Below are positions 2,120 to 61,604 of a stretch of 64,000 nt of DNA, in pieces. The stretch is from Serinicoccus sediminis. Its GTDB lineage: Bacteria; Actinomycetota; Actinomycetes; Actinomycetales; Dermatophilaceae. The notes below the pieces were generated by a model, which saw nothing but the letters and a program-made list of their open reading frames with translations, searched no databases and was not told where the DNA came from. The DNA is taken from NCBI RefSeq assembly GCF_004153545.1, contig NZ_SDVA01000001.1, forward strand, positions 248,001 to 312,000, given 5' to 3'. Made by a program: the position numbers and the translations under genes. Position 1 is the first letter of the stretch. Each line of letters starts with the position of its first letter.

Positions 2120-2183
2120 GGGGTGGGTGTCTCCTGTGGGTTCGGAAGTGGGTATGCCGTCGGACCGGTCGTCCGGCGGCCTG

Positions 2184-2300
2184 GTGCGGTCCGAGCACGC
2201 GTCCGGTGCGGCCCGAGCACGCGTCTCGTGCGGTCGGAGCACGCGTCCGGTGCGGTCGGAGCACGCGTCCGGTGCGGCCGGAGCGCGCGTCCTGTGCGGT
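2184..2300. repeat. 22-bp tandem repeat array (5 units plus part)
   Basis: Five 22-bp units start at 2184, 2206, 2228, 2250 and 2272, followed by a 7-bp partial unit that directly abuts the stop codon of ilvN. Read on the ilvN strand, the core is GCACMGGACGCGTG. Copies differ at a few positions. The same family occurs at 33785, 44704 and 55585, and singly near 35950, always just 3' of a stop codon. Confidence 0.9.
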
Positions 2301-2636
2301 CTAGAAGGCGGCGGCGGCCATGGCGCCGACGGGGCGCGGGCCGTTGTCGTTGATCTGCCACAGCTGGGTGCGGATGGCGTCGGCGTCGTCCAGCTCCTCG
2401 ATGTGGATGACCTCGACGAGCTTGTCCAGCTGGCTGGTGACCTTGTGCAGCTGCTCGGCGTTGACGTTGACGACGATGGTCATCCGGCTGACCTTGTTGT
2501 CCTCGGTCGGGCCCACGACGAGGTGGTCGATGTTGAAGTTGCGCCGGGCGAAGAGGACCGACACCCGGGCCAGGACGCCGGGGTTGTTCTCGACCAGGAC
2601 GGACAGGGCGTGGCGGATGCGAGCTGCGTCGCTCAT
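2301..2636 (-). CDS. ilvN: Acetolactate synthase small subunit, short form
   Basis: Regulatory ACT-domain subunit that confers valine feedback inhibition on IlvB. The ACT signature [19 protein letters not shown] and the following [16 protein letters not shown] occupy residues 11-46. The protein is only 111 aa, against about 160-170 in most actinobacteria; the second (ALS_ss_C) domain is absent and the tail is [16 protein letters not shown] plus alanines. The ATG at 2636 has GAAAGG upstream. A longer in-frame start at 2741 overlaps the ilvB stop as ATGA and would add 35 Pro-rich residues. The stop abuts a tandem repeat array. Confidence 0.88.
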
Positions 2637-2737
2637 GGTGGTGCCTTTCGTCGGGTGCTGCTGATGGGTCTGGGGTCGATAGGCGGGTGCGGGGGTGGGC
2701 AGGCCGGGGCCGTGCGGAGGGTAGTCGGACAGCAGGG

Positions 2738-59313: not shown

Positions 59314-59445
59314 GTCCACCACCCTTTCGGTCGTCATCCTTGACGCGACGACACCCCGACAGTGTGCACCTCCGACCACCTCAGCACCACCAGACGCGCG
59401 ATACGGTGAGCAGGTCTCGGATCTCGACACACAAGGACGTGGGGT

Positions 59446-60645
59446 ATGAAGCTGGCCTCCAGGCTCGACAACCTCGGCACCGAGACCGCGTTCGCGGTCG
59501 CCGCGGCCGCCGCCGACTGGAAGGCCCAGGGCCACGAGGTCTTCCCCTTCCACCTCGGTGACCTCGACTTCCCGCTGGCCGGCCACATCGTCGAGGCGAT
59601 GAACGCCGCGATCGCGGACGGGAAGACCGGCTACTGCCCGGGCCCCGGCATACCCGAGCTGCGGGCCGCCCTCGCCGAGGACATCGGATCCCGTCGCGGC
59701 ATGTCCTTCGGCCCGGACGAGGTGACCGTCATGACCGGCGGCAAGCCGGTCATCACCAAGTTCCTCCAGGCCGTGATGAACCCCGGCGACGAGGTGCTCT
59801 ACCCCAACCCCGGCTTCCCCATCTACGAGAGCCAGATCGAGTACCTCGGCGGCCACGGGCGCTCCTACCGCTACCTGCCGACCGACGACGGCTTCCGGAT
59901 CGACCTGGACCAGGTCCGCGACGCGATCACCGACAAGACCGTCGCCATCATCTACAACGACCTGCAGAACCCCATCTCTGCGGAGTCGACCGATGCCGAG
60001 CGCGAGGCGATCGCCCAGCTCGCCATCGAGCACGACCTGTGGGTGCTCTCCGACGAGGCCTACTTCGAGATGCGCTACGAGGGCACGTCGACCTCCATCG
60101 CGAGCCTTCCGGGCATGCGCGAGCGCACCTGCATCCTTTACACCTTCTCCAAGAAGTTCGCGATGACCGGCTCCCGTCTCGGCTGCGCCGTCGCACCGGC
60201 CCCCATGGGCAAGGTCTTCTCGACGATGAACACCAACGACGAGTCGTGCACGACCCACTACGTCCAGTGGGCGGGCATCGCGGCGCTCACCGGCACCCAG
60301 GAGCCGGTCGCCGACATGCTCACCACGCTGAAGGGGCGCCGCGACGCCGCGTGCGAGATCGTGAACGACACCCCGGGCATGTCCGTGGAGACGCCCCGCT
60401 CGACGTTCTACCTCTTCCCGGACGTCACCGAGGCGATCCAGATCGTGGGGGCGCAGGACGTCGGTGACTTCGCCACGCAGGCGCTCCACGCGACCGGGGT
60501 GAGCTTCTGCACCCGCAACCACTTCGGCCGACCGCAGCCGGGCGAGGACCGCAGCTACATCCGGTTCGCCTACTCCGGTCTCCCCGAGGACAAGATCCGT
60601 CGCGGCCTCGGCGGGCTGCGCGAGTGGATCGGCAGCCACGCATGA
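59446..60645 (+). CDS. PLP-dependent aminotransferase
   Basis: 399-aa fold-type I enzyme. Conserved parts: GDLDFPLAGHIVEAMNAAI, GYCPGPGIPELRAALAEDIG, PNPGFPIYESQIEYLGG, YNDLQNPISAESTD (the Asn that binds PLP), SDEAYFEMRYEG and the Schiff-base region YTFSKKFAMTGSRLGC. It resembles aspartate aminotransferases of the Ib subgroup. AAGGACGTGGGG precedes the ATG. It overlaps a hydroxyacid dehydrogenase gene as ATGA, so the pair may convert an amino acid through its keto acid to a hydroxy acid, or the reverse. Confidence 0.9.
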   Translation: MKLASRLDNLGTETAFAVAAAAADWKAQGHEVFPFHLGDLDFPLAGHIVEAMNAAIADGKTGYCPGPGIPELRAALAEDIGSRRGMSFGPDEVTVMTGGKPVITKFLQAVMNPGDEVLYPNPGFPIYESQIEYLGGHGRSYRYLPTDDGFRIDLDQVRDAITDKTVAIIYNDLQNPISAESTDAEREAIAQLAIEHDLWVLSDEAYFEMRYEGTSTSIASLPGMRERTCILYTFSKKFAMTGSRLGCAVAPAPMGKVFSTMNTNDESCTTHYVQWAGIAALTGTQEPVADMLTTLKGRRDAACEIVNDTPGMSVETPRSTFYLFPDVTEAIQIVGAQDVGDFATQALHATGVSFCTRNHFGRPQPGEDRSYIRFAYSGLPEDKIRRGLGGLREWIGSHA

Positions 60646-61604
60646 GCAGGGTCGTCGTCACCGGCCGCATCCCCAAGCCGGGCCTCGACATCCTGCGCCG
60701 CGCCGGCCACGAGGTCGACGTCTGGGACAGCGAGGAGCAGCAGCCGCGCGAGCAGCTGCTGGAGCAGGTCCGCGGCGCCGACGCGCTGCTGACGCTGCTG
60801 ACCGAGCAGGTCGACGCCGAGCTCGTGGACGCCGCCGGGGAGCAGCTGCAGGTCGTCGCGAATGTCGCGGTGGGCTACAACAACGTCGACGTGGAGGTAT
60901 GCCGTGAGCGCGGCGTCGTCGCCACGAACACCCCGGGGGTGCTCACCGAGGCGACGGCCGACATCGCGATGGGCCTCGTGCTCATGGCGACCCGCCGGCT
61001 CGGCGAGGGCGAGCGCGTCATCCGGTCCGGCACCCCGTGGCAGTGGGGCATGTTCTACCTCCTCGGCTCGGGGCTGCAGCGCAAGACCCTCGGCGTGGTG
61101 GGGCTCGGGGCGATCGGCGCGGCCACGGCCCGGCGCGCCCGGGCCTTCGGCATGAACGTCATCTACTCCTCCCGCTCCCAGGCGCCGCGCGAGCTGGAGC
61201 TCGAGCTGGGGGCGCACCGGGTCGACCTCGACACCCTGCTGGCGGAGAGCGACGTGCTGTCGCTGCACTGCCCGTACTCCCCCGCCACGCACCACCTGCT
61301 GGGTGCCGAGCAGTTCGCCGCGATGAAGCCCACCGCCTACGTCGTCAACACCGCCCGCGGCCCGGTCATCGACGAGGCGGCGCTGGCCCAGGCGCTGCGG
61401 GAGGGGCAGATCGCCGGGGCCGGGCTGGACGTCTTCGAGGACGAGCCGCAGGTGCATCCCGGGCTGCTGGACTGCGAGAACGCCGTGCTGATCCCCCACC
61501 TCGGATCGGCCACCATCGAGACCCGGACCGCCATGGCCACCCTGGCCGCGGACAACGCCGTCGCCGTGCTGGCCGGCGAGGAGCCCCCGACCCCCATCCG
61601 GTGA
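60642..61604 (+). CDS. D-2-hydroxyacid dehydrogenase (glyoxylate/hydroxypyruvate reductase-like)
   Basis: 320-aa NAD(P)-dependent reductase. VANVAVGYNNVDVEVCRERGV, TPGVLTEATADIAMGLVL, the Rossmann motif GVVGLGAIGAATARRARAFGM, VNTARGPVIDEAAL with the active-site Arg, LDVFEDEP with Glu, and PHLGSAT with the catalytic His are all present. It is closest in pattern to glyoxylate reductases. The start overlaps the aminotransferase stop by 4 nt. Confidence 0.93.
   Translation: MSRVVVTGRIPKPGLDILRRAGHEVDVWDSEEQQPREQLLEQVRGADALLTLLTEQVDAELVDAAGEQLQVVANVAVGYNNVDVEVCRERGVVATNTPGVLTEATADIAMGLVLMATRRLGEGERVIRSGTPWQWGMFYLLGSGLQRKTLGVVGLGAIGAATARRARAFGMNVIYSSRSQAPRELELELGAHRVDLDTLLAESDVLSLHCPYSPATHHLLGAEQFAAMKPTAYVVNTARGPVIDEAALAQALREGQIAGAGLDVFEDEPQVHPGLLDCENAVLIPHLGSATIETRTAMATLAADNAVAVLAGEEPPTPIR

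Follow-up and report, generated by a model that had tools for sequence, protein, structure and literature searches.

The octamer GGTATGCC of Serinicoccus sediminis, a putative lineage-specific self-recognition word in a family of Actinobacteria

To our knowledge, sequence-specific DNA uptake by means of abundant genomic words is firmly established only in the Neisseriaceae and the Pasteurellaceae. The present analysis concerns the octamer GGTATGCC, which is dispersed over a stretch of 64,000 nucleotides of the Serinicoccus sediminis genome (contig NZ_SDVA01000001.1, positions 248,001 to 312,000; hereafter the window) and which is a likely candidate for a genome-wide self-recognition word that would work like the words of those two families, serving transformation via a Tad-type pilus and ComEC, with words that differ by genus. 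The DNA uptake sequence (DUS) of the Neisseriaceae is described, in the excerpted text of PMC3630211, as a short, non-palindromic word with approximately a thousand or more copies, located in genes as well as between them, with lineage variants that follow phylogeny and with some family members that carry no obvious word, and paired copies serve as terminators (PMC1852404, excerpt). The uptake signal sequence (USS) of the Pasteurellaceae is present on the same scale (1471 copies in Haemophilus influenzae; PMC1939737, excerpt), uses both strands equally at even distances (PMC2238722, excerpt) and is represented by two words in the family, Hin-USS and Apl-USS (PMC12616744, excerpt). What defines such words is that they enhance DNA binding, uptake or transformation.

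An exact search of both strands of the window returned 30 copies, 17 as GGTATGCC and 13 as GGCATACC, which agrees in both number and strand use (17:13) with a preliminary description of this DNA, apart from one coordinate, which is 3777 and not 3778. The plus-strand copies are located at positions 2151..2158, 3777..3784, 8531..8538, 26039..26046, 27536..27543, 30975..30982, 32091..32098, 34056..34063, 35083..35090, 40809..40816, 42657..42664, 48262..48269, 51756..51763, 52693..52700, 55375..55382, 56923..56930 and 60896..60903, and the minus-strand copies at 3203..3210, 4289..4296, 9603..9610, 12308..12315, 15882..15889, 17593..17600, 29345..29352, 31838..31845, 36621..36628, 38586..38593, 52199..52206, 54568..54575 and 59647..59654. 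The strong over-representation that had been claimed is upheld, as 100 dinucleotide shuffles of the window gave a mean of 0.76 and a maximum of 5 copies, and an order-2 Markov model predicts 1.3. Furthermore, the genome-wide count, which had been proposed as a means of overturning that claim should it lie near expectation, is far above it: the draft genome of S. sediminis (G000, 3.55 Mb, whose contig C16 includes the window) contains 1363 copies (698 and 665 in the two orientations), compared to 18 of the reversed word, which served as control, an extreme over-representation that is also characteristic of DUS and USS. In 464 kb of this genome, 167 copies were counted against 10 expected from an order-3 Markov model that itself contains the motif. 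The favoured form of the word in this genome is GGTATGCCG(T), and TGTATGCC is likewise enriched.

Within the genus (Ornithinimicrobium/Serinicoccus), 30 of 31 genomes possess 285-2180 copies of GGTATGCC, the exception being G022 with 38; eight Ornithinimicrobium/Serinicoccus genomes, a count outside which O. cerasi falls, carry 395-1764 copies each. A survey of 176 genomes of the family, each at least 80% complete, identified many genera that are rich in GGTATGCC, some that are intermediate and others at background, and the spread may be wide even within a genus, as in g57, where G145, G147 and G146 contain 11, 347 and 1694 copies, respectively. All 361 genomes from other families of the order contain at most 136 copies; within the order, abundance of GGTATGCC is limited to a single family.

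Motif-poor genera were searched for words of their own, by which a second word, CGAAGGGGG, was found in G114 of genus g51. This word is present in 797-1939 copies in all 15 genomes of g51 and all three of g60, and in 11-80 copies in the other 158 genomes of the family, and the same 18 genomes of g51 and g60 contain just 6-40 copies of GGTATGCC; the two are mutually exclusive, lineage-specific words. Along 540 kb of G114, 120 of 218 CGAAGGGGG copies lie on the plus strand, all six reading frames are enriched (3.8-94 fold), and the density is 1.02 per kb in intergenic versus 0.33 in genic DNA. A 480 kb block of the same genome harbors 16 oppositely oriented CGAAGGGGG pairs less than 60 bp apart, 13 of which are arranged plus-minus; 13 of the 16 start no more than 130 bp downstream of a plus-strand gene, and for many of these close pairs an extension to long stems is discernible by eye. 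These hairpins behind genes resemble the paired uptake sequences of Neisseria and the Pasteurellaceae as excerpted from PMC1852404.

Genes were called by our own script in approximately 800 kb of G000, where 314 copies of GGTATGCC comprise 255 coding, 51 intergenic and eight at gene edges. All eight edge copies supply the predicted ATG start codon, and three of them are the window copies at 29345, 51756 and 56923, which agrees with the three start codons mentioned in the preliminary description. The word also imposes rare codons, as had been proposed: 40 of 78 ATA and 90 of 303 TAT codons in this sample fall within it. The preliminary description had conceded that a dipeptide codon-pair bias might account for the enrichment, and two reading frames do indeed hold 161 of the 255 coding copies (RYA/WYA/GYA and AY contexts). 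However, enrichment over a null that retains protein sequence and codon usage amounts to 6.2, 29.5, 97, 70, 27.6 and 22.9 fold in the six frames, and four control octamers, in both orientations, fall below expectation, while intergenic DNA is three times as dense in CGAAGGGGG as genic DNA. Codon or dipeptide bias as the source of the abundance is accordingly rejected, on the enrichment of all six frames, and its likelihood is negligible; since every frame is enriched 6-97 fold given the proteins, GGTATGCC is a DNA-level and not a protein-level feature. When synonymous codons were shuffled, GGTATGCC and its one-base shift were the two most deviant octamers both in G000 (228 copies of GGTATGCC versus 11.5 expected) and in the relative G007 (148 versus 5.7).

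The outer positions 1, 7 and 8 of the word tolerate mismatch. In G000, one-mismatch variants do not exceed 1.4-fold at core positions 2-5, and the twofold value at position 6 is based on two copies; in G007, variants with A at position 6 are in excess (10 versus 1.2 expected) and position 2 is represented by two copies. A palindrome one base removed from the motif, GGCATGCC, is strongly depleted in both genomes (10 versus 55 expected in G000, 0 versus 26 in G007). This depletion hints at a sequence-specific process acting on related words and counts in favour of a self mark linked to restriction-modification or defence. Restriction sites are usually avoided, not multiplied, whereas GGTATGCC is enriched. 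Moreover, the deamination of methylated GGCATGCC would yield at most about 31 copies in G007 (the sum of both expectations), where 135 are seen, and does not account for CGAAGGGGG; an origin of the word by this route is rejected on the G007 numbers, and a restriction-linked role as a whole is very improbable.

The octamer is non-palindromic and is found on both strands without replication polarity, as are DUS and USS. On a contig of 540 kb, the plus strand holds 110 of the 216 copies and the strand walk is narrower than 99% of random walks, which substantiates the earlier statement that there is no strong strand polarity, and in G007 both orientations are intermixed in all 12 sampled regions. 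A polar sequence that orients FtsK (KOPS-like) would likewise be an abundant, non-palindromic octamer, yet the strand data contradict the polarity that such a role requires; it was rejected on these grounds and has next to no likelihood.

The spacing of GGTATGCC depends on orientation. Neighbours less than 1.2 kb apart are opposite in 81 and alike in 24 cases in G000, and opposite in 68 and alike in 17 in G007; counts of all pairs indicate that opposite-orientation pairs occur about as often as expected (somewhat more so in G007) and that same-orientation pairs are depleted. Of the pairs separated by 60-900 bp, 19 of 88 share orientation in G000 versus 44.0 expected, and 25 of 90 in G007 versus 45.4 expected (each P = 5e-5, the lowest value attainable with 20,000 shuffles), the two samples overlapping in one orthologous 60 kb region; no effect of orientation was found beyond 900 bp. 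Among 287 G000 octamers of comparable abundance, only GGTATGCC and its shift have a ratio of 0.5 or less, the other 285 being at 0.82 or above. The effect is weaker for CGAAGGGGG in G114 (15 of 40 same-orientation pairs versus 20.1 expected, P = 0.067), with 5 of 21 versus 10.5 expected at 900-1200 bp (P = 0.013). The spacing of same-orientation copies points to a word with a single reading direction, to which a second copy facing the same way within about 1 kb adds little. We know of no model of uptake-sequence evolution that includes such a quantitative signature.

A directional signal of this type brings to mind Chi sites (RecBCD/AddAB), octamers that are also read one way and abundant in self DNA, and GGTATGCC might be a Chi-like signal at which RecBCD or AdnAB, reading the word one way, switches from degradation to recombination. 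Repulsion of same-orientation copies within 0.9 kb, with opposite copies approximately independent, is what such a signal would give, and GGTATGCC is scarce in foreign DNA. However, the Chi sites of Escherichia coli K-12, used as a yardstick over 400 kb, are strand-biased (76:22), copies on the same strand do not repel one another (23 of 32 pairs share orientation versus 20.8 expected), and the enrichment of GGTATGCC far exceeds that of Chi in E. coli, given as 761 versus 85 expected under a first-order model in the excerpted part of PMC2238722. Furthermore, RecC, the component covered by our survey, is found in 86 of the 176 family genomes; it is missing from most genomes of the motif-rich genera g54 (0/9), g66 (1/11) and g71 (1/8) and is present in 15 of 15 genomes of the GGTATGCC-poor g51. 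The RecBCD-Chi variant was rejected on the RecC pattern across genera and on the differing strand and spacing behaviour of E. coli Chi, and a Chi-like role in general is improbable. The distribution of RecC is patchy, with G170 and G200 as lone carriers in g66 and g71, genera otherwise devoid of it, and suggests repeated gain or loss of RecBCD.

The orthologous conservation that the preliminary description had recommended for examination was assessed in six relatives that align around the window at 83-90% identity. Exact GGTATGCC is retained at 21 of 29 sites in G012, 17 of 26 in G028, 19 of 24 in G021, 21 of 26 in G011, 18 of 26 in G007 and 11 of 19 in G026 (107 of 150 in total), compared to 47/86, 41/74, 29/60, 36/71, 33/67 and 19/43, in the same order, for control octamers with a matched strong/weak pattern (205 of 401), these values being non-independent as the aligned genomes are kin. 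Arbitrary octamers are retained at 29-47% in the six relatives. Where the word is not retained, the aligned alternatives are mostly a few point substitutions away, and some involve indels. At the window site 26039..26046, G007 and G026 carry the reverse complement at the aligned place, and the predicted gene, which reads Arg-Tyr-Ala in S. sediminis, reads Arg-His-Thr in the same frame in these two relatives; this flip of orientation is one event in which the word was preserved and the protein altered.

A DNA-level, orthologously conserved and frame-independent word would also be expected of a chromosome-wide intracellular protein site, acting in nucleoid structure, replication or repair. HIP1 of the cyanobacteria, in the excerpted text of PMC4390886, offers a precedent as an over-represented octamer with lineage variants and no proven function. 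HIP1 is, however, palindromic and methyltransferase-associated, whereas neither GGTATGCC nor CGAAGGGGG is a palindrome, and a housekeeping protein would have had to change its target to an unrelated word in two genera, g51 and g60, while its sites would have had to vanish from G022 and G145. A nucleoid-protein site is possible, although two unrelated words in neighbouring genera are not what it would lead one to expect; on balance, an intracellular site appears doubtful.

Mobile DNA that was examined is poor in the word. The comEC gene of S. sediminis is interrupted by a prophage of 40.4 kb (G000:C46:68541-108950, L009-L011) encoding a serine integrase, an endolysin and a tail protein, in which two copies of GGTATGCC are present versus 15.5 expected (P = 2.5e-5); a related prophage of G002 (G002:C1:1161218-1201313, L012-L014) contains one copy in 40.1 kb, and that of O. 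cerasi (L037) none in its first 10 kb. On contig C16, one of the four longest motif gaps carries genes for a TrwC relaxase, type I restriction, GmrSD and HipA, and of two others one has a phage integrase and one is low in guanine plus cytosine (GC). GGTATGCC is thus scarce in the few mobile elements examined, as are DUS and USS in such DNA, with one core-like gap excepted.

As regards comEC itself, the gene is a recurrent prophage site: it is split at approximately the same codon in G000, G002 and O. cerasi (in the latter in opposite orientation) by prophages that are 65-77% identical over parts, and in G000 the serine integrase adjoins the 3' piece of comEC. Split ComEC matches were also obtained in G112, G124, G129, G155, G161, G174, G186 and G193, some of which possibly represent contig breaks. 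In the complete genome G015, which has a low GGTATGCC count (383), comEC (L016, G015:C1:1046001-1066000, at approximately 9134-11035) appears to be devoid of residues ~374-512, as judged from two adjacent tblastn pieces.

Import machinery of the kind that accompanies DUS and USS, ComEC together with a type IV filament, is almost universal in the family, with ComEC in 173 of the 176 genomes and T2SSF, taken to represent Tad, in 174. In the actinobacterium Micrococcus luteus, transformation requires tad genes according to an excerpt of PMC4322843, a paper that makes no use of the term 'uptake sequence'. Among the papers listed in our literature searches, none presented an uptake word from Actinobacteria, which does not prove that there is none in print. 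The abundance of GGTATGCC, its lack of polarity, its selection at the DNA level, its restriction to one family, its exclusiveness with regard to CGAAGGGGG, the hairpins of the latter, the scarcity in mobile DNA and the near-universal import machinery together argue for a word used in DNA uptake, and no other kind of element considered here fits this set of features as well. GGTATGCC is a lineage-specific genome tag, directionally spaced and probably serving uptake by Tad and ComEC. Of the three roles put forward in the preliminary description, the uptake or species tag is thereby the best supported, the restriction-linked motif is disfavoured, and the nucleoid-protein site retains the standing given above.

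From these patterns we infer binding, uptake, direction and drive as follows. DNA that bears the word would be bound by a surface-exposed part of the Tad/Flp competence pilus or by a protein adjacent to ComEA/ComEC; the bound DNA would be drawn in, a single strand crossing ComEC, and homologous recombination would swap resident alleles for the incoming ones. The word would be read in one direction, which may, for example, fix the strand or flank that enters. As word-bearing DNA would enter more often, copies born by point mutation would spread and persist, and with sister genera reading CGAAGGGGG the DNA pools would stay apart. If correct, this would represent a third independent origin of uptake words, in Actinobacteria with a Tad pilus; it would predict natural transformation in genera that are not known to be competent, and it would open to comparative tests the old question of what favours the evolution of uptake words, be it mate choice, molecular drive or receptor bias.

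Several observations weigh against an uptake role. PilM marks the type IVa pilus, the bearer of the known DUS receptor ComP, which is typical of the described systems without strictly defining them. PilM_2 is over the cut-off in only five of the 176 family genomes, and the Neisseria machinery is therefore absent from nearly all of them; in part because this known receptor system is absent, GGTATGCC is not filed as a proven member of the DUS/USS class. ComEC and T2SSF, being near-universal, do not track motif-rich versus motif-poor genomes, nor do PilM and RecC separate the two among the 176 genomes, and in S. sediminis, as in G002, comEC is the very gene that is interrupted by a prophage. In addition, a GC-rich, core-like gap of 28.8 kb (G000:C16:60644-89401), which includes a MurJ homologue, is free of the motif, and the distant relative G004 (81% identity) retains 2 of 13 copies, with the control (6 of 30) being no lower.

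The comparison with the described systems reveals further discrepancies. Unlike the DUS of the Neisseriaceae, the words occur in a high-GC actinobacterial family with Tad-type genes and not a type IVa pilus. GGTATGCC and CGAAGGGGG have no common core, whereas DUS dialects share one (PMC3630211, excerpt), as do the two USS words their inner core. One-mismatch variants at core positions 2-6 exhibit no clear excess in G000, which counts against a simple drive picture, whereas one-off DUS copies in Neisseria outnumber exact ones in raw counts (PMC3630211, excerpt). The spacing of GGTATGCC depends on orientation, to which uptake by H. influenzae is reported to be indifferent in the excerpted text of PMC1939737, and a search for an intragenic position bias of GGTATGCC, such as is reported for Pasteurellaceae uptake sequences (PMC2346458, excerpt), found none. 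Hairpins of GGTATGCC are rare: close pairs are in no overall excess, and among the seven pairs less than 60 bp apart that were sampled in G000 and G007, no stem is prolonged beyond two further bases. Of four pairs picked for their closeness, three (L078, L079 and, in S. chungangensis, L081) do have a stem that extends further; the remaining one also belongs to the set of seven. Finally, a search of genus g2 (120 kb of G031 and 60 kb of G187) returned no clear word of its own.

A similar search in g3 (120 kb of G032) produced no convincing word. In G145 (L132-L138), the candidate word CGTACGGCG was counted 62 times versus 9 expected, in a small sample and partly inside the palindrome GCCGTACGGC, and the candidate GTACGGCG of this genome is also partly contained in a palindrome. 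In G022 (L070-L077, L015), GGTAGCGGC is a candidate in a similarly small sample (20 versus 3 expected), and the candidate GTAGCGGC is based on 103 kb only.

With respect to other features of the window, a plasmid search using one window gene returned a single, irrelevant match. Two dispersed repeats of approximately 67 and 100 bp, at positions 16367-16433 and 16518-16621, overlap a long predicted open reading frame without a Pfam match; both have matches at many places across the genomes of the genus, those of the first being on both strands.

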